64,000 bases of DNA from Psychrobium sp. MM17-31 (GTDB lineage: Bacteria > Pseudomonadota > Gammaproteobacteria > Enterobacterales > Psychrobiaceae): the NCBI RefSeq assembly GCF_022347785.1, contig NZ_JAKRGA010000003.1, positions 744,001 to 808,000 of the forward strand, in the 5' to 3' direction. The stretch's first letter is position 1. Every line of letters begins with the position of its first letter. Both the position numbers and the translations under genes were made by a program. Below, in pieces: positions 9,553-64,000 of the stretch. The notes under the pieces are model-generated. The model did no database searches, was not told where the DNA came from, and saw only the letters and a program-made list of their open reading frames with translations.

Positions 9553-9735
9553 ATGAAAATAATCGTAGCCATTCTAGCTGCATGCTTGGCGGGATTTTGT
9601 TTTTATAACGCCTATGGCATTCAAGGCGTTACATTTGGCCGTTTAGGCTACTTAGCAGCTGGCGTTATTTCAACCATCGTCGTATTTGCCCCATTCGTTA
9701 AAAAACACGATGACGAGCAGTCTCGTAAGTTCTAA
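9553..9735 (+). CDS. Small inner-membrane protein, unknown function
   Basis: A 60-residue protein with two predicted transmembrane helices (about residues 2-21 and 31-49) and a charged, Lys/Asp-rich tail K-K-H-D-D-E-Q-S-R-K. A GAAGGAAA Shine-Dalgarno sits at good distance from the ATG, which supports real translation. I recognise no family. It stands alone, 92 bp after the transglycosylase, with which it might be cotranscribed. Confidence 0.65.
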   Translation: MKIIVAILAACLAGFCFYNAYGIQGVTFGRLGYLAAGVISTIVVFAPFVKKHDDEQSRKF

Positions 9736-10059
9736 AAGCGTTTAAAATTCCAACACTTTAATGTCTGTGTCATTCGTTAATGAAATTCCTCGTCCATCTC
9801 AACATCGAATTTTAGTAAACTAACTGGCACCCCCCCCCTCTTTCCTTTTCGATTTAATGAACAATAATTATACGTTTGGCTAATATTTAGTAACAACATA
9901 TGCCTATATTATTCCCTAATATGAGAATTAATTACTTGACGAATTAGTCCAATAAAGTAACTTAAACTCGAATAGATTAATCAATTTTGAGCACCGTAAT
10001 TAGATTAATTTTATAAACCCAATTGCATGAAGCACACGTAGAAACATGGAGATAGTTGA
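9736..10059 (+). other. Gene-free upstream region of the PAS chemoreceptor with a C9 tract
   Basis: No ORF of note. A run of nine C (9830-9838) lies about 220 bp before the chemoreceptor start, in otherwise AT-rich sequence that must contain its promoter. ATGGAGATAG gives a GGAG Shine-Dalgarno 8 bases before the start at 10060. Confidence 0.6.
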
Positions 10060-11364
10060 ATGGGATTTTCCTTATTCAAGGCGCCCGCGCCTGCTGAGCC
10101 GACTGCTGAGCAAATTCAAGCGACTAAATCACATCAAATCTTAGAGAGTTTAAAAAACTCTGTGGCGTTTATTGAATTTACGCCTGATGGCACTATTGTT
10201 GATGCTAATGACAACTTTCTCACTGCTGTTGGCTATTCGCTCGCTGAGATTAAAGGTAAGCACCATCGAATTTTCTGTGATCATGCCTACACCCAAACCA
10301 ATGAATATTTAACCTTTTGGCAGAATTTAGCTGCTGGTAAGTCGTTAACCGATCGCTTTTTGCGTTTTGATAAATCAGGCACACCGATTTGGTTAGAGGC
10401 CAGTTATAACGCGGTTCGCGACGAAGATGGAGCGATTCGCTCCGTGGTTAAAATAGCCAGTGATATTACTGAATTCGTTGAAAAGTCCAATATTCAAGAA
10501 GGTATTTTAGCAGCGCTAGATCGCTCATCAGCCATTATTTCATTCGAGCTTAACGGCACCATTATCGAAGCTAACGATAATTTCTTAGGCGCAACAGGCT
10601 ATAGTTTAAGTGATATTCAAGGACAACATCACCGCATGTTCTGTCCTGATGAGATTACTAATAGTCGCGACTACAGCGATTTTTGGGACAAGCTAAATCG
10701 CGGTGAGTTTGTGCAAGGTTTATTTGAGCGTCGCGATTCCCATGGCAACGTATTGTGGTTAGAGGCCAGTTATAACCCAATTCGCGATGCTAACGACAAG
10801 CTCATTCGTATCATTAAATTCGCCACTGATGTTACCGAGCGTGTGACTAACATTAAAAATGCCTCTAGTGCTGTGCATTCGACTGTTGATGCCACTGAGC
10901 AAGTTTCTGCCGAGGGACGCGAAGTGTTGGATCAAAGTGTCGGCATTATGGACGATGTCACCAAAAACGTTGAAGTGGTGGCCAGTGATATCAATGCGAT
11001 TAACGAGCAATCGGATAAGATTAGCAATATCGTCAGTACGATTTCATCAATCGCCGATCAAACCAATCTGCTTGCCCTAAACGCCGCTATTGAAGCCGCT
11101 CGTGCTGGTGAACAAGGTCGTGGATTTGCGGTTGTTGCCGATGAAGTAAGACAACTTGCGGCGCGAACTAGTGCGTCGACAGCTGAAATATCTGAGGTAG
11201 TGAAAAATAACGCGGCCTTGTCTGCCGTGCTATCTAGAAATATTGTCGAAACCCAAGAAAAAGCGCAAGAAGGCAAAGGTTTCGTGTCAGAAGTGAACAC
11301 TATTTTTGGCAAGATCAATCAAGGAATGAGTGGCGTCATCGCCGCAGTTGATCGTTTGCAATAA
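10060..11364 (+). CDS. Soluble PAS-PAS methyl-accepting chemotaxis protein (BdlA/Aer-like)
   Basis: A 434-residue chemoreceptor without transmembrane segments or HAMP. Two similar PAS domains (about residues 25-145 and 150-265) each begin with A-F/S-I-E/I-F-x-x-x-G-T-I and end with V-K-I-A-S-D-I-T or I-K-F-A-T-D-V-T, typical of haem- or flavin-binding redox sensors. The signalling hairpin follows, with the highly conserved [20 protein letters not shown] and [12 protein letters not shown]. Architecture and length resemble BdlA-type proteins that link redox or nutrient state to chemotaxis or biofilm dispersal. It is monocistronic and ends at a terminator. Confidence 0.9.
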
Positions 11365-56882: not shown

Positions 56883-57560
56883 ATGCTCCATCTTAGTGAT
56901 CAAAATTTCATTCACCCCGAAACAAAACTATATCGAAATAATACACAATTTCAGGCGTTTCCTAATCACGAGGAAGTCAAATTTAACAACGAGCAGTTTT
57001 TTGCTATTGGCAAGCTAAACGTTAAAGATATCGTAAAAGATTGTGCAGATGACGTATTTCTAGGGTATCCACCAAGTGAATGGTTAGCAGAGCAAGAATA
57101 TATAACTTACGCGCTCATTGATGGCCAGTGGCAATTAGATGTCGACGATCTCGATGAATGGGAATTTGATTTTGAAGATGAACAAGCACGTTACGACGAT
57201 GTAAAGGCGTTTCACAACGAGCATGGTTTTATTCAATACCATCCAAATGATGAACCTGATGAATCTCGAAAGAGTGGCTTAGTCAACATTGGCGGTCAAG
57301 CGCCAACGGGTTGGAACTGGGATGCCTATTTGTGGGAAAACGAAGAGGAATCAGATGCACTCTATGACGCATCAGAAGACGAAGAAAGTGAAGAGTCACA
57401 AGCCATATTAAAACGAGCCATTATTATGAAAGTTGGCTGTGATATATATCATTACATTGCTCATGTTCAATGTATGAATTATGCCGAAAGTAGCGCTGAT
57501 TTAATCTATTTCTACAATCCGCAAAAAAAGCGTGTCGTGATGGGCGTAGATTACTCATAA
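56883..57560 (+). CDS. Acidic protein of unknown function
   Basis: A 225-residue protein, very rich in Asp and Glu, especially in D-V-D-D-L-D-E-W-E-F-D-F-E-D-E and the low-complexity stretch E-D-E-E-S-E-E-S near residue 170. No signal peptide, helices or family were recognised; the segment G-G-Q-A-P-T-G-W-N-W-D-A looks folded and may be diagnostic. An AAGGACTTAAAC context serves as ribosome site. It stands alone between the Maf gene and a terminator, so the context says little about function. Confidence 0.8.
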   Translation: MLHLSDQNFIHPETKLYRNNTQFQAFPNHEEVKFNNEQFFAIGKLNVKDIVKDCADDVFLGYPPSEWLAEQEYITYALIDGQWQLDVDDLDEWEFDFEDEQARYDDVKAFHNEHGFIQYHPNDEPDESRKSGLVNIGGQAPTGWNWDAYLWENEEESDALYDASEDEESEESQAILKRAIIMKVGCDIYHYIAHVQCMNYAESSADLIYFYNPQKKRVVMGVDYS

Positions 57561-57625: not shown

Positions 57626-58795
57626 TTAAAGCGCTCTTAATACTTCAAAACATGCACCAAGCGTATGATAGTCACATTTAGCACCAGCGCTGGATTTTTC
57701 GTTACTATAAGCCCTATTGTCTCTAGTTACCACTCTAAACCAAGCACCATGCTTGTGATCTATCAGGTGCTGCCAACTGTATTGCCACAACGCTTGGTAA
57801 CTATCAAGAAACTTAGCCTGTCCAGTTTGTTGATAAAGTAAGGCTGCCGCTGCAAAGCTTTCGGCTTGAACCCAGAAATATTTGTCGTCATCACACCAAA
57901 CCCCATCGACATCGAAACCATAGACGAGACCACCGCACTGTTGATCCCACGCTGTTTGATAGGCATATTCGAATAACTGCGCAGCTTTATCCACCAACCA
58001 TTGTTTAGGCTGATATCGATTTAATATCAGTAACAGTTTAGACCATTCTGTTTGATGACCAGGCTGAAATCCCCAAGGTCGATAAAGGTTTTTGGGATCA
58101 TCTTTATTGTATTGCCAGTCTATTTCAAAATCTTGCGTATAATGCTCCCAAACCAGTCCGTCAGAAAGATTTGCTTGGCGCTGTGTGATATTTTCCGCAA
58201 CCAACAATGCCCGCTCAAGAAACACGTTATCTTCAGTTGCCTCATAGGCAGCAATGAGCGCCTCGCATAAATGCATATTAGCGTTTTGGCCACGATAGTT
58301 GCTTAGTGCACCATCTACAGTTATTTCATCCGCGTACAAACCGTGTTCTTTTTGCCAAAATCGTACTTCTAACAATTCGAAAACTCGATACAGTTGCTCC
58401 TTTGTGTCAATAATTCGATGTTTAATGCAATTTGCATAGGCGAGCAATACAAAAGCATAACCATAAGCCTGTTGGGTCATATCGATTGGAAGATGGTTAT
58501 CAAGGGTCCACGCATAGCACTCACTATCACTTTGCCAATGAACTTGTTCAATATAGTCCAAACCGTGTTTAGCAATCGCTTTATAGTCAGGACGCGCTAA
58601 CATATCTGACGCAACCGCATAATTTACAACGATTCGAGTGCTACTAACTAGGTGGCGGACGTTAGGAGCAAATACTTGCCCGTCATCGAGAAAGTTTTGA
58701 AAATAACCACCAGATTTGTCGACAATTCGTTTATCGTAAAACGCCATAATTGAACGACAATGATCGCGTAAAAATGATTTATCATGAAAATTCAT
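57626..58795 (-). CDS. AGE-family sugar isomerase, probable mannose isomerase
   Basis: A 389-residue member of the N-acylglucosamine 2-epimerase superfamily, an (alpha/alpha)6 barrel that includes mannose isomerase and YihS-type enzymes. Motifs G-G-Y-F-Q-N-F and R-H-L-V-S-S-T-R-I-V-V-N-Y, N-A-N-M-H-L-C-E-A, the W-G-F-Q-P-G-H-Q-T-E-W-S-K-L-L and K-Y-F-W-V-Q-A-E-S segments carry the conserved His/Glu residues. With the PfkB kinase directly upstream, mannose-to-fructose isomerisation is the best guess. Start ATG 58795 is chosen over the in-frame TTG at 58807. It is the last gene of the minus-strand operon. Confidence 0.85.
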   Translation of the reverse strand: MNFHDKSFLRDHCRSIMAFYDKRIVDKSGGYFQNFLDDGQVFAPNVRHLVSSTRIVVNYAVASDMLARPDYKAIAKHGLDYIEQVHWQSDSECYAWTLDNHLPIDMTQQAYGYAFVLLAYANCIKHRIIDTKEQLYRVFELLEVRFWQKEHGLYADEITVDGALSNYRGQNANMHLCEALIAAYEATEDNVFLERALLVAENITQRQANLSDGLVWEHYTQDFEIDWQYNKDDPKNLYRPWGFQPGHQTEWSKLLLILNRYQPKQWLVDKAAQLFEYAYQTAWDQQCGGLVYGFDVDGVWCDDDKYFWVQAESFAAAALLYQQTGQAKFLDSYQALWQYSWQHLIDHKHGAWFRVVTRDNRAYSNEKSSAGAKCDYHTLGACFEVLRAL

Positions 58796-58825
58796 AATGT
58801 TATTCAACTCTAATTAACATCGACA

Positions 58826-59785
58826 TCACATCGACAAGGGACCAATATCACTGACACTCGGTAACGCTGGAAATGCGCCATAACGACTCACAGCATGAGC
58901 GCCACAACGCGCCGCATAATCAATGACTGCCGACAACTGCTCACCATGCTCTAAAAACTCAACAGGATTTTGTTGCTGACTCAATGCGCACAAAAAGCCG
59001 CCAATAAAGGCATCTCCTGCAGCAGTGGTGTCCAACGCATCCACTTTAGGCGTTGGTAACGTCCCTTGGTAACCATCGCCATAAAACGCAATCTCACCTG
59101 CACCATTGGTCACCAGAATAAGTAATACACCATTATAGATGAGCGACTGTATATATTGCTCGACATCACCCTGTGCTAGATATTCCAGTTCATCGCGCGA
59201 GAATTTCAGCAAGTCGCTCTGGCGAGTAAACTCATTAACCGTTTCTATGTTGGCATGACCATGGCGCCACAAGTTGTGACGTAAATTTACATCAAAACTC
59301 ACTAACGCATCTTGGCTGCGAGCTGTGTCAATGAAACGTTGAGTCGTTTCGCAAATACCTTTATCCGTTAACGTATTGCTACAAAAATGCGCGATATCTC
59401 CAGCATCAAACCAGCTACTACTGATTTGCGGTGGAATCATCACTAAATCGGCGGTGTTATCGCGATAGAATGAAAAGCTGCGCTCTCCGTCATCGTCAAG
59501 AGAGACAAATGCCAATGCTGTTTTTGCAGTAGGGTGGCGAAGAATAAATTGCGTATTTACCTGATATTGACTCAAAGCACTTACCAAAAAATCGCCAAAG
59601 TTATCGCTGCCTATCTGCCCAGCAAATGAGGCGTTGCCGCCAAGCTTTGCAATCGCAACAGCAACATTTGCCGGAGCGCCACCGGGATATTGCCGATACT
59701 CATTGAGGGAAAGCGTCTCTTCATCGACGCTATTGATAGCAATAAAATCAATTAATGCCTCACCAAAACAAACGACAGTGCTCAT
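58826..59785 (-). CDS. PfkB-family sugar kinase, probable fructokinase
   Basis: A 319-residue ribokinase-fold kinase. The N-terminal signature G-G-A-P-A-N-V-A-V-A-I-A-K-L-G-G and the C-terminal D-T-T-A-A-G-D-A-F-I-G-G-F with the catalytic base Asp are complete. C-F-G-E-A-L-I-D-F resembles bacterial fructokinases. It sits between the hydrolase and the isomerase with gaps of 18-31 bp, so it should phosphorylate the product of the isomerase, yielding fructose-6-phosphate. Substrate assignment is by context. Confidence 0.88.
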   Translation of the reverse strand: MSTVVCFGEALIDFIAINSVDEETLSLNEYRQYPGGAPANVAVAIAKLGGNASFAGQIGSDNFGDFLVSALSQYQVNTQFILRHPTAKTALAFVSLDDDGERSFSFYRDNTADLVMIPPQISSSWFDAGDIAHFCSNTLTDKGICETTQRFIDTARSQDALVSFDVNLRHNLWRHGHANIETVNEFTRQSDLLKFSRDELEYLAQGDVEQYIQSLIYNGVLLILVTNGAGEIAFYGDGYQGTLPTPKVDALDTTAAGDAFIGGFLCALSQQQNPVEFLEHGEQLSAVIDYAARCGAHAVSRYGAFPALPSVSDIGPLSM

Positions 59786-59806
59786 TACCCTACTCCTAGC
59801 TCTTTG

Positions 59807-61075
59807 TTATAAGCACCAATGTAGTGCGATTGCTGCCGTCCAAGAAAACGCATCGCCACCACAGCCTGCACCCGTTTCACAATTAAAGTATTCAAAATAC
59901 CCTGTTTGCTCGACTAGCGCTTGAGTCGATGCCTTTATTTGCTCGGCTTCCTCAGCAAATCCATAATGTTGCATGCCATTAGCGATCAACCAATTGATAT
60001 GTAGCCATACTGGCCCGCGCCAGTAACGTTGCGGCTCATATTTATCTGAGGTAGGAATTGTTGAAGCCATTCCGTAGTCAACGGCACTTAGCCATTGACG
60101 AGAGATAGTCAGCAAAGACGCCGCTTGCGCTTCGCTAGCCAACTCACCATATAAAGCCATCATAGTGCCCGTTGTCATGACTTTTACAAATTCATCAGTA
60201 ATAGCATTTTTATTGTAAAAGCTTTGAGTTTCCTCATCCCAAAGTGACGAAATGGCTTGCTGTGTTAACAAATGACGCGATGCTAAGTCATCAATGGCAG
60301 ATTGTTCAGTGCCATATTCATCGCAAATAGCCAGTAAATCTTTGGTGGCTTTGTGCAATATCGAAATAATGCCTACATCGTACATTTTGTATGGGCAGTG
60401 CTGAAAAATTTGTTCACTATCAAAATTGTGCTGCTTGTAGAAATCCACCAAATAAAGATAACGATCATATTCGGCTGCATGTGGCCTTTCAGCGGCATCA
60501 ACGTGCTCTAAATCCTTACGCTTATACTGCCAAGTAACCGGCGGCACAGCAGCCAGACTTTCATCCCACGCTGGACTGTTATCCATGCCAGACTCCCATG
60601 GATGATAGCTAACCACAAGCCCCGTTTTACGCGGATCGCGCTCGTTATACCACCACTGATGATAAGCAACTAGCTTATCTAACATTGCATCAATTTTAAC
60701 TTTGGCAAGCTCGCGATCATTTGCTACTTCTAGCATAATTTTCACCACACTCGCTAACACAGGCGGCTGTGAAATGGATGTCGTTGCAGGTTTTTGAGCT
60801 GTCCCCCAAACATCAGCACCTGGAAAATAACTATCGACTTCTTCATGGAAAATAATATGCGGGATCATGCCGTTGTCCCACTGCCCTTCAAGTAACTTTT
60901 CTATCTCTAACCACGCACGCGACTCGTCGATCTTCATCCAGCCCAATGCGGTAATTGCCGCGTCCCAATTCCACTGAAACGGATATAAGCCATGAGTTGG
61001 AATTGTATATCCCCCCATATCATTTTTGCGCAGTATGTCTTTTGCTTGTTCAATAAGTGACTCTCGGTTTGCCAT
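59807..61075 (-). CDS. GH63-like glycoside hydrolase, probable mannosyl- or glucosylglycerate hydrolase
   Basis: A 422-residue cytoplasmic enzyme with an (alpha/alpha)6 glycosidase pattern: Y-P-F-Q-W-N-W-D-A-A (catalytic Asp region), S-I-S-Q-P-P-V-L-A, H-P-W-E-S-G-M-D-N-S-P-A-W-D, R-Y-W-R-G-P-V-W-L-H-I-N-W and G-G-D-A-F-S-W-T-A-A. These match GH63-related hydrolases that act on small osmolyte glycosides such as mannosylglycerate and glucosylglycerate. No signal peptide, so the substrate must be imported first. First gene of the minus-strand operon; divergent from the TonB receptor. Trehalase (GH37) is a related alternative. Confidence 0.8.
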   Translation of the reverse strand: MANRESLIEQAKDILRKNDMGGYTIPTHGLYPFQWNWDAAITALGWMKIDESRAWLEIEKLLEGQWDNGMIPHIIFHEEVDSYFPGADVWGTAQKPATTSISQPPVLASVVKIMLEVANDRELAKVKIDAMLDKLVAYHQWWYNERDPRKTGLVVSYHPWESGMDNSPAWDESLAAVPPVTWQYKRKDLEHVDAAERPHAAEYDRYLYLVDFYKQHNFDSEQIFQHCPYKMYDVGIISILHKATKDLLAICDEYGTEQSAIDDLASRHLLTQQAISSLWDEETQSFYNKNAITDEFVKVMTTGTMMALYGELASEAQAASLLTISRQWLSAVDYGMASTIPTSDKYEPQRYWRGPVWLHINWLIANGMQHYGFAEEAEQIKASTQALVEQTGYFEYFNCETGAGCGGDAFSWTAAIALHWCL

Positions 61076-61346
61076 ATTATTTTCTCTTTTTTGTAAAGGT
61101 CAATTAACTCGTTTTGAGTATTAAATCACTATAAAAACTTAAATGAAAGAACTTTTAAACCCAAAATGAGTTGTTTTATCTTTTGAGCTATGTTTTACTG
61201 CTTACGTAACTTGAGTGAATAACATACAAAAACCACGTGTTATATAACCTGTATTTGTTGAAAGATAGATAGCAGGGTTTCACTTGAGCTTCATACATCA
61301 CAAAAATATATAAATAGTATAATAATCAAATAAAAAGGTGGGGTTT
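61076..61346. promoter_or_regulatory. Divergent regulatory region of the sugar locus
   Basis: The 13-base motif AACTCGTTTTGAG (61106-61118) recurs inverted as AACTCATTTTGGG on the minus strand (61160-61172), 11 of 13 bases identical, centres 54 bp apart. A C-T-T-T-T-G-A-G lies nearby at about 61180-61187. Such paired sites between divergent operons are likely bound by one regulator. No promoter boxes are certain. Confidence 0.5.
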
Positions 61347-63806
61347 ATGAAATACAGTAAGGTCTGGCAAGTGCTATCTCTAGTCTTGGCGTCATCATCA
61401 ACTGCGGCATTTGCAGCAGAGGAAAAAGAAGCGCCAAAAAAAGAGAAAGCACCTGAAGTTATCTTAGTAACAGGTTCGAGCGTTTTGCGTTCTGAAGCTG
61501 ATACGCCAGCGAAAACAACTTGGTTTAACAACGAAGAAATCGCGCGAACGGGCTTTACCAGCCAAGCGGACATCTTATTGTCAGTACCAGGCATCAAAGT
61601 AGAAGGCGGCGGTGGTGAAGTTGCCACTAACGCCTTTGTTCGCGGTTTACCTTCCGGTGGCCAGTTTCAATTTACCCCACTTAACTATGATGGCATGCCA
61701 GCGTTCCAATCGGGCATGACCTCGTCAGCACAAGATGTTTACTATCGTCCAGATATCGGCATCGAGCGTGTGGAATTTGTTGGTGGCGGTGTCTCTAACC
61801 TGTTTGGCCCAGGCTCAGTTGCAGGCATTATTAACTACATCTCTAAGAAAGGTAGTGATACGCCGGAAACAACGATTCAGTTAGAACTCGCTGAAGATGG
61901 ACGACTACGTACTGATTTTTTTAACGGCGGCGCAATTTCAAGCGATGACAACTTATACTACGCCATGTCAGGTTACTACCGTTACGATGAAGGCCCGCTA
62001 GATACCGGACTGCCAACTAAAGGATATCAATTACGCGGTAACATTCACAAAGAAACAGACAATGGCTTCTTTACTGTTTACGGCCAAATGATTAATGACA
62101 ATGTCCAATTTTTCTTGCCACTGCCACTCGATGGCGCTAGTCGTAATCGTCTGAAAGGCAACGACGGTAACACTGTCTATGTAGGGCAATCTGTCGCCGC
62201 TGCTGAGCTCTCATTCCCTACAGCTGACGGTCAATATCAATCACCAATTAGAGATGGTGTTTCAACAGTGGGTGGCTCAATCGCCATCGAGTTCTCAAAC
62301 GAACTAACAGAAAATTGGACGCTTAGTGGCAAGGCAAAAGCCGCAGACTACGAACATCAATTTAATCTATTTTTAGATGGTGACGGCATTGCCAATTCAC
62401 CTGAGCCTCAGCAAGGCTATGTCACCAATAGTGCGCGTAACATTAATGGCCAAAGTCTTACCGACACTTACGGCACGCCGTCATTTACATGGGCGGAAAC
62501 AGGCAATGCATTACCTGACAATTACCTATTATTCGGTAACCGTTTGTTAGATCGTCAGCGCGATGGTGATTTTTTTAGCACTGAATTTAACTTAGCTGGT
62601 GAAATCAGTACTGAATCATTTACCCATAACCTCAACATTGGCGTGTTCTTTATTAACGCCGAGCAGATGGATTACAACGTACTTTCAAGCTATCTCGCCG
62701 ACTTTAGCAATGGTAAAGATGCCCGTTTAGTTAATTTATCTTTCACCGATGGCAATGGAAAGGTCACTCATTACTCACGCAATGGTGTCGTAGGTCCAGG
62801 TACGAGTTACACTAACAAACAACTGACCTCTCGTCGCGCAGCCTTCTACATTACCGACCAAATGGAGAACGACCAATGGGCGTTTGATATTGGTATGCGT
62901 ATTGAAAACGCCAAAGGCACCACCAAAAATGAAGGCCGTGAGACAGTCACACTGTCAGACGATGAGTCTTTAGCACACAATCTGCAAGTTAATTCGACTG
63001 GTAATGGTCAATTTACTTATGGTGAAGTAAGCACCACTGAAGCCGCCTTCTCTGCTGCCGCGCTGTATAAAATGGACGATCAAGACATCAACCTTTACGC
63101 CAATGCATCTAAAGGCTATTTCTTCCCGCAAATTCGCTCAATTCGCTTTAACGCCAACGGTGAGCCACAAAGTTACGAAGGGGAAGATATTACGCTTGCA
63201 ACCTTGGGTATCAAATACTTCCCAGAAGATCTCTACATCGATGCCTCATTGTTTATGGCTAATTTAGACAATCGTCGCTCAGTAGATTTTGAAAATGATG
63301 GCATCGGTGGGATCCGCGAAATCGTTAATACCGTATCGACTGAGACCGTGGGTCTAGAAGTTATTGGTCGTTATACTATTTCCGATGATTTAACTATCGA
63401 CGGTAACATTACCTATCAAGATGCCGAGTTCTCTGAAGGCGGCAACGTGGGTAAACAGCCACGCCGACAGCCAGAATTCTCAGGTAACCTAGGTATTGCC
63501 TACAATGATGGTGTGATCGACTCTCGCTTAGGTATTAGCTACTTTGGTGACAACTATGCAAACGACTCAAATAGCGTAGAGCTCGACGGCCATAACATCG
63601 CCACGTTTGATGTTGGCTACACATGGGAGCTAGCACGTGACCAAAAACTGCGTTTAGGTTTTGGTGTGTGGAACTTGTTTGATAGCGACGGTATTACCGA
63701 AGGCTCTCCTCGACAAGGTAACGCCCAGGTCTCTGGTGGCGAATTCTTCGTCGGCCGTCCAATCTTGCCTCGTAGAATGAGCATCACGGCTAGATACGAC
63801 TTCTAG
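61347..63806 (+). CDS. TonB-dependent outer-membrane receptor
   Basis: An 819-residue receptor with signal peptide (ends S-S-T-A-A-F-A-A), a charged Glu/Lys linker, plug domain (V-I-L-V-T-G-S, I-L-L-S-V-P-G-I-K-V, F-V-R-G-L-P-S-G, I-G-I-E-R-V-E-F-V) and a 22-strand barrel ending R-M-S-I-T-A-R-Y-D-F with the C-terminal Phe for BAM insertion. It should carry the locus substrate through the outer membrane using TonB energy. No N-terminal signalling domain is present. Start ATG 61347 overlaps an AAGGTGGGG ribosome site; the GTG at 61338 is part of that site. Confidence 0.93.
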   Translation: MKYSKVWQVLSLVLASSSTAAFAAEEKEAPKKEKAPEVILVTGSSVLRSEADTPAKTTWFNNEEIARTGFTSQADILLSVPGIKVEGGGGEVATNAFVRGLPSGGQFQFTPLNYDGMPAFQSGMTSSAQDVYYRPDIGIERVEFVGGGVSNLFGPGSVAGIINYISKKGSDTPETTIQLELAEDGRLRTDFFNGGAISSDDNLYYAMSGYYRYDEGPLDTGLPTKGYQLRGNIHKETDNGFFTVYGQMINDNVQFFLPLPLDGASRNRLKGNDGNTVYVGQSVAAAELSFPTADGQYQSPIRDGVSTVGGSIAIEFSNELTENWTLSGKAKAADYEHQFNLFLDGDGIANSPEPQQGYVTNSARNINGQSLTDTYGTPSFTWAETGNALPDNYLLFGNRLLDRQRDGDFFSTEFNLAGEISTESFTHNLNIGVFFINAEQMDYNVLSSYLADFSNGKDARLVNLSFTDGNGKVTHYSRNGVVGPGTSYTNKQLTSRRAAFYITDQMENDQWAFDIGMRIENAKGTTKNEGRETVTLSDDESLAHNLQVNSTGNGQFTYGEVSTTEAAFSAAALYKMDDQDINLYANASKGYFFPQIRSIRFNANGEPQSYEGEDITLATLGIKYFPEDLYIDASLFMANLDNRRSVDFENDGIGGIREIVNTVSTETVGLEVIGRYTISDDLTIDGNITYQDAEFSEGGNVGKQPRRQPEFSGNLGIAYNDGVIDSRLGISYFGDNYANDSNSVELDGHNIATFDVGYTWELARDQKLRLGFGVWNLFDSDGITEGSPRQGNAQVSGGEFFVGRPILPRRMSITARYDF

Positions 63807-63817
63807 TGTGTTATACA

Positions 63818-63852
63818 GTGAGAAACATTGGCTTGATGTCGATGTTTCTCAC
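63818..63852 (+). terminator. Intercistronic hairpin between TonB receptor and symporter genes
   Basis: Perfect 11-base arms GTGAGAAACAT (63818-63828) and ATGTTTCTCAC (63842-63852) with a 13-base loop, followed by TTTGCTTTTT. It may partly terminate receptor transcripts and so set the receptor-to-symporter ratio. Confidence 0.7.
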
Positions 63853-63882
63853 TTTGCTTTTTACCTGTAAGGCATTTCTGTT

Positions 63883-64000
63883 ATGAATTATTTTGACTAC
63901 GCCATTATCGGCATCTATCTCTTTTTACTTATCTTCATGGGCTATAAACTGCGAGGGCAGTCGAGCAAAAACGACTATTTTCTCGGTGGCCGCAGTGTTG
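63883..64000 (+). CDS. Sodium:solute symporter (SSS family), N-terminal fragment
   Basis: The first 39 codons of a gene that runs out of the window. MNYFDYAIIGIYLFLLIFMG forms a first helix and S-S-K-N-D-Y-F-L-G-G-R-S-V is the classical SSS motif after it. It would import the sugar or glycoside across the inner membrane with sodium, matching the upstream receptor. AAGG lies about 10 bases before the ATG. Confidence 0.88.
   Translation, partial: MNYFDYAIIGIYLFLLIFMGYKLRGQSSKNDYFLGGRSV

Follow-up and report, generated by a model that had tools for sequence, protein, structure and literature searches.

In Psychrobium sp. MM17-31 we identified a block of seven genes that is probably a regulon devoted to the catabolism of an alpha-hexosyl-D-glycerate, with 2-O-alpha-D-mannosyl-D-glycerate (mannosylglycerate) as the likeliest substrate, a reading to which we assign a probability of roughly 0.76; that some hexosylglycerate is consumed through the block is almost certain. 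The block lies at the end of a 64,000-nucleotide stretch of contig NZ_JAKRGA010000003.1 (the window; C3:744001-808000 within the 4.17-Mb genome) and extends over about 10.4 kb, from 57626 to 67984. Coordinates above 64000 continue those of the window, the region past its end having been read as locus L002 on the same contig; the window stops at 64000 but the locus does not, and plus-strand genes continue past the symporter. The minus strand carries genes for a mannose isomerase, a PfkB kinase and a GH63-type hydrolase, and the plus strand those for a TonB receptor, a sodium symporter, a glycerate 2-kinase and a ROK regulator. An earlier note, made from the letters of the window, had described minus-strand hydrolase, PfkB and AGE genes divergent from a TonB receptor and an SSS symporter; the open reading frames lie as it placed them and the Pfam families agree. 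The glycerate kinase or regulator that it suggested looking for beyond 64000 turned out to be both present.

In the proposed pathway, the intact solute would cross the outer membrane through the TonB receptor and be imported to the cytoplasm by the sodium symporter, where the GH63-type hydrolase would cleave it to mannose and D-glycerate. The AGE isomerase would convert mannose to fructose, the PfkB kinase would yield fructose-6-phosphate, and the MOFRL kinase would turn glycerate into 2-phosphoglycerate, so that both halves of the solute would reach glycolysis. The ROK protein would repress the divergent hydrolase and receptor operons through two palindromes on the same face of the helix, one of which overlaps the receptor's predicted -35 box. 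What the sequence itself shows is which families the genes belong to, that active sites are conserved, that the gene set recurs and that an operator pair is associated with the ROK gene; substrates and direction of flux are predicted from these features. A route of uptake, cleavage and entry into glycolysis had already been sketched in the earlier note, and it is supported by the enzyme family matches and by the glycerate kinase and regulator next door.

The hydrolase (59807..61075, minus strand) is a predicted GH63-type mannosylglycerate/glucosylglycerate hydrolase. Its Pfam match to PF22422 'MGH1-like' (3e-93) is followed by weaker ones to Trehalase (7.7e-18) and GH63 (2.6e-08). The best Protein Data Bank (PDB) match, near full length at 2.6e-117, is 2z07/4wva-c (Thermus thermophilus TTHA0978), with the mycobacterial hydrolase next at 4e-67 (5ohc and relatives, which we take to be the glucosylglycerate hydrolase of Mycolicibacterium hassiacum, MhGgH). 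The sequence of 2z07 is that of 4wva, which excerpts of PMC6608630 identify as the Thermus mannosylglycerate hydrolase (MgH), and the same excerpts give 13 catalytic and substrate residues as conserved among MgH/GgH-type hydrolases. These were mapped by counting on the PDB-match alignment and then checked on 90 aligned rows, comprising 88 loci and two PDB references; the loci were the best 80 of 586 hydrolase relatives from a scan of bacterial genomes, six fetched earlier, the window (via L002) and L117, which was typed from its annotation. The catalytic acid/base pair D165 and E395 (D182 and E419 in MhGgH) was invariant in all 90 rows, and the substrate residues Y31, W35, W37, D38, Y83, Q103, G163, R197, Y203, Y351 and W352 are all identical to their MhGgH counterparts (Y36, W40, W42, D43, Y88, Q115, G180, R216, Y222, Y375 and W376). 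Across the rows, 12 of the 13 residues were invariant and Q103 was kept in 89, a constancy that is partly built in for five of the 13 because YPFQWNW and WESGMDN served as search patterns when the scanned loci were gathered. The residues that contact glycerate (Y31, W35, Y83, R197 and Y351) are thus among those retained. TTHA0978 is the closest solved relative, equal at all 13 residues and at the loop-E Phe, whereas MhGgH, of the same family and with the same catalytic Asp and Glu, is more distant (222-230 bits) and carries Gln434 at the loop-E position, where Phe is general (89 of 90 rows). Among the 90 aligned rows we found no residue separating mannosyl- from glucosylglycerate preference. 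A signal peptide was not seen by eye, and the hydrolase is therefore taken as cytoplasmic.

The possibility that this is a trehalase-like enzyme adjoining unrelated sugar genes draws on the Trehalase Pfam match and on public records, in which relatives are labelled 'trehalase family glycosidase'. We give it practically no credence: the MGH1-like match is far stronger, none of the 16 matched PDB sequences is named trehalase, and a glycerate kinase shares the locus. A trehalase function was accordingly rejected, and the comparison with trehalases proposed in the earlier note comes out clearly on the side of mannosyl/glucosylglycerate hydrolases by Pfam, NCBIfam and PDB.

The AGE-family D-mannose isomerase gene (57626..58807, minus strand; an internal ATG at 58795 is by eye the likelier start) encodes the sole PF07221 match in the genome (2e-100). 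Its best PDB matches are 5x32 (458 bits, 2.8e-136) and 3gt5 (449 bits), the latter bearing an epimerase name and, to our knowledge, no assay; YihS-type chains follow at 134-138 bits, other chains named glucosamine 2-epimerase reach at most 64 bits and cellobiose 2-epimerases at most 58. Labelled N-acylglucosamine 2-epimerase in the PDB, 5x32 is cited in excerpts of PMC7762179 as the Marinomonas mediterranea mannose isomerase. Active-site histidines H179, H251 and H395 are given there for the P. geniculata mannose isomerase, and histidines 179, 251 and 381 match this trio here, the third by motif rather than by alignment to that enzyme. NCBIfam models ranked likewise (mannose isomerase 207 bits, N-acylglucosamine 2-epimerase 69, cellobiose 2-epimerase 66). 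An N-acylglucosamine epimerase, the identity that the earlier note had wished to see checked, was rejected on these PDB (458 versus at most 64 bits) and NCBIfam (207 versus 69) scores, which favor mannose isomerase.

The PfkB-family kinase (58826..59785, minus strand) is most likely a fructokinase, judging by PF00294 (5e-56), its best PDB match 3ljs 'Fructokinase' (1.6e-67) and its best NCBIfam model, fructokinase PRK09434. The DUF4147/MOFRL glycerate 2-kinase (65518-66765, L002:9518-10765, plus strand) matched PF13660 (DUF4147; 5.9e-71, 239 bits) and PF05161 (MOFRL; 3.4e-34, 118 bits) over their Pfam cut-offs, accounts for the genome's sole PF13660 match and resembles most, among PDB entries, 2b8n 'glycerate kinase, putative' (9.3e-63). 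The TonB-dependent outer-membrane receptor (61338..63806, plus strand) has a Plug domain (PF07715, 2.5e-14) and relatives similarly placed in sister loci; its likelier start by eye is an internal ATG at 61347 rather than the GTG at 61338. The sodium:solute symporter (63883..65463, L002:7883-9463, plus strand; 526 aa, SSF 5.5e-41) has only its first 118 bases (63883..64000) in the window. Iodide and monocarboxylate carriers are its closest solved relatives, with SGLT behind, a ranking that fits an anionic solute and does not prove one.

A quick tree of the 90 rows, made without bootstrap and with some loci cut by contig ends, placed the window's hydrolase in a clade of 14 rows (SH-aLRT 96) that contains all 10 AGE-bearing loci of the 88. 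Its members are the window, Pseudocolwellia agarivorans, a Kangiellaceae metagenome-assembled genome (MAG), Paraglaciecola, Alteromonas hispanica, Aestuariibacter, two further genomes, a Catenovulum plasmid, three Woeseiaceae MAGs, a Pseudomonadales MAG and another gammaproteobacterial MAG. Receptor, symporter and ROK genes neighbor the hydrolase in 14 of 14, AGE in 10, glycerate kinase in 9 and PfkB in 4. No AGE gene was scored in the 74 loci outside the clade, a weak AGE-like gene in L055 (144 bits) having been excluded from the tally beforehand. The make-up of the mannose arm differs between loci, with isomerase and PfkB in the window, L013, L014 and L017, and the isomerase alone in L011, L012, L015, L018 and L020. 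On the Catenovulum adriaticum plasmid pCadTS8_1, a hexokinase-family gene (L007:13255-14445) replaces PfkB beside a strongly diverged AGE gene, whose reaction is uncertain because its best PDB match reaches only 31 bits. This hexokinase-family gene is annotated as hypothetical, and its best solved relatives are eukaryotic hexokinases.

The ROK regulator (66830-67984, L002:10830-11984, plus strand) matched PF00480 over its cut-off (1.9e-30) and MarR_2 under that model's cut-off, and carries a QQTxSR-type helix in its N-terminal part. The zinc motif CxCGxxGC, typical of ROK proteins, was absent from all 15 ROK proteins above 200 bits at these loci, the window's included. The divergent region between hydrolase and receptor carries a palindrome twice (consensus AACCCAWWWTGGGTT): a putative hydrolase-proximal operator AACTCGTTTTGAGTA (61106..61120), 31 nt upstream of the hydrolase start, and a putative receptor-proximal operator AACCCAAAATGAGTT (61158..61172), at a distance of 52 bp. 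The pattern ACYCRWWWYGRGT, written once the sites had been seen, matched twice in the window against 0.13 expected. We then scored loci with a matrix trained on sites picked by eye from the same divergent regions, leaving out the locus tested. The two best sites were 52 or 53 bp apart in 9/9 loci, and the summed score of the pair was reached by none of 1,000 shuffles in each of them; the spacing alone was seen in 8 to 22 of 1,000 shuffles. In five of seven ROK loci outside the training set (match above 200 bits), a site scoring at least 12 stood upstream of hydrolase or receptor, and none of the 71 loci without such a ROK match reached 12, the highest being 11.1. The operator pair is thus associated with the ROK gene.

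The predicted receptor promoter (61171..61199, plus strand) has a -35 box TTGTTT (61171-61176), a 17-bp spacer and a -10 box TTTACT (61194-61199). In 9/9 loci the TTG that opens the predicted -35 box consists of the final two operator bases on the receptor side plus the G that follows, and the -10 match was best with 17 bp between the boxes (mean 3.89 of 6, comparing spacers of 12-23 in the 9 loci). Since 52-53 bp amounts to about five helical turns, the two operators face one side of the helix, and repression by ROK with a DNA loop would be the natural reading; the inducer is likewise a prediction. A strong operator copy also stands upstream of the receptor in two sphingomonad-type loci (L032:6076 and L035:6093), which hold a receptor, a glycerate kinase, an MFS carrier and a ROK gene, so the pairing of regulator and site extends past the gammaproteobacterial locus. 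A wider regulon in the host's own genome was looked for and rejected: the operator pattern occurs at 10 places there, no more than the 11 of a reversed control, and none of the further sites is credible. The eight matches outside the locus are likely due to chance, because seven lie inside reading frames of at least 110 codons.

Mannose is the likely, not the proven, released sugar. Glucose would be hard to explain, because a mannose-type isomerase and a probable fructokinase share a transcript with the hydrolase. The same regulon could nevertheless have glucosylglycerate, or both glycosides, as its natural substrate, with the AGE enzyme acting on glucose or in a side role; we regard this as unlikely, since a released glucose would presumably need neither isomerase nor fructokinase, and the nearest match of the isomerase is a mannose isomerase, a type whose P. 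geniculata member prefers mannose to glucose about 50-fold (kcat/Km 9.7 versus 0.2; excerpts of PMC7762179). Several observations nonetheless weigh against mannosylglycerate or against the assignments behind it. According to excerpts of PMC6608630, the hydrolase class accepts both glycosides and MhGgH works almost tenfold better on glucosylglycerate, and the P. geniculata isomerase does have its weak glucose activity. The best NCBIfam model of our hydrolase is the narrower 'glucosylglycerate hydrolase' (GluglyHdase), at 353 bits under an equivalog cut-off of 550 that L007, L010 and L019 also miss, and the other enzymes likewise stay below theirs (isomerase, ManIsomPseudo, 207 against 600; PfkB kinase 221 against 450; glycerate kinase, glycerate 2-kinase model, 212 against 550). 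AGE is missing from 4 of the 14 clade loci, and the corresponding genomes (L016, L021, L022 and L045) gave none at 1e-60; use of mannose by another route may be compatible with this absence. When 50 whole genomes were checked, AGE matched at 1e-60 in 17, namely 8 of 12 clade genomes and 9 of 38 others, and of these nine, six scored 215-312 bits and three, which hold the ABC-type loci L019, L037 and L064, were strong (449-474 bits). Glycerate kinase is lacking in 5 of 14 clade loci, and L017 and L018 have no operator (scores 3.1 and 7.4) despite their ROK match. These same two Woeseiaceae MAG loci carry a sucrose-phosphorylase-like GH13 gene between receptor and symporter (L017:6114-7826 and L018:5499-7220), possibly, we assume, a glucosylglycerate phosphorylase. 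Separately, in L117 (Meiothermus) a gene annotated as a sugar phosphorylase adjoins a hydrolase of the same family.

The GH13 partner, together with receptor and symporter specificities that sequence cannot reveal, also bears on a third reading, in which the locus would serve another small mannoside or glucoside (e.g., mannosylglucosylglycerate or another alpha-hexosyl acid) and glycerate would be only one product. The retained glycerate-contacting residues and the presence of a glycerate kinase at nine of the 14 loci in the clade make this decidedly improbable. The preference for a mannoside over a glucoside expressed in the earlier note therefore stands in part: the isomerase is indeed nearest to mannose isomerase, but the hydrolase class takes both glycosides and mannose isomerase has some activity on glucose.

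The block appears to be rare among close relatives. The hydrolase was found at 1e-30 in 3 of 295 genomes of the order, our host counted, and in none of the eight other genomes of the genus, some of which are incomplete. Downstream of the ROK gene lie HAD phosphatase, RluC and RNase E genes (named by eye from sequence), and the corresponding site was fetched from six of these eight genomes, five stretches spanning both flanks. The block is missing in all five, with maf near HAD-RluC-RNase E instead. In L103 the small gene at 56883 is kept and about 70 bp stand in place of the window's 10.4 kb. L104 (genome G152) has a lone glycerate kinase at the site (9581-10846), nearest to the window's own (56.6%) of 18 others compared, which could be left over from the block or represent an intermediate on the way to it.

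Whether the host makes this solute or feeds on it was addressed through the synthases. Mannosyl-3-phosphoglycerate synthase (PF09488) had no match in the genome, with Thermus composti matching among 14 control genomes, and glucosyl-3-phosphoglycerate synthase gave only weak matches (at most 58 bits against a cut-off of 262); one-step synthases were not sought. With neither synthase over its cut-off, the organism is probably a consumer rather than a recycler, and solute recycling by a producer was set aside on the same grounds. The host is probably marine, which we assume from the genera of its relatives, and many red algae have mannosylglycerate among their principal small solutes. A red-algal source is our guess, made because some carriers are linked to algae (a Catenovulum with source 'algae', and Pseudocolwellia agarivorans by its name). 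The red-algal food suggested in the earlier note is thus favored by these carriers and disfavored by the absence of a GH16 match in the host's own genome. A diet of red-algal polysaccharides was rejected on that absence, four places in the genome exceeding the cut-off for sulfatases.

Known systems resemble the block in part. Thermus synthesizes mannosylglycerate itself, whereas no such synthase matched here and the hydrolase is surrounded by receptor, symporter, isomerase, kinases and regulator. Escherichia coli mngR/mngA/mngB handles mannosylglycerate by phosphotransferase uptake, a GH38 mannosidase acting on its phosphorylated form and a regulator of the GntR family; the substrate is the same, but none of these three families occurs among the seven genes here. 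ABC-type operons found in alphaproteobacteria, Deinococcus and Meiothermus (L008-L010, L019 and L117, among others) share the hydrolase family, and L010, L065 and L090 also carry a glycerate kinase; they differ in ABC import and, mostly, a LacI-type gene, and AGE was scored in the locus in none of 59 ABC rows. ABC-transporter versions are frequent in Rhizobium, Sinorhizobium and Microvirga (including L008, L009 and L010), their hydrolase, where annotated, being mostly a 'trehalase family glycosidase', and these operons may be hexosylglycerate scavengers. Digeneaside degradation genes of Zobellia galactanivorans were reportedly described by Barbeyron in 2016. Homologs of these genes were sought and found in Maribacter (excerpts of PMC8072126), and digeneaside is among predicted substrates of polysaccharide utilization loci (excerpts of PMC6298971). 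These bacteria are alga-associated and have the same proposed food, but they are Flavobacteria. The MhGgH enzyme, for its part, serves recovery from nitrogen starvation (excerpts of PMC6608630). Digeneaside use, already proposed for Zobellia, is therefore a known kind of pathway. By titles and the starts of abstracts, and with catabolism papers covered in part, we found no gene-level account of gammaproteobacterial mannosylglycerate use via a TonB receptor; within the literature searched, the gammaproteobacterial gene set, its interchangeable mannose arm and the pair of ROK operators seem to be new.

On balance, we lean toward the view that a mannosylglycerate (digeneaside) regulon is shared among marine gammaproteobacteria and moves horizontally between them. 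It would always hold the receptor, symporter, hydrolase and regulator, its mannose arm would be open to exchange, and a ROK repressor lacking the zinc motif would bridge two operators that lie between the divergent promoters, separated by about five turns of the helix. The proposal names each stage between the outer membrane and glycolysis and gives both regulator and DNA site, so that the pathway is directly testable. The locus would also serve as a marker for consumers of the solute where genomes label the hydrolase 'trehalase family glycosidase'.

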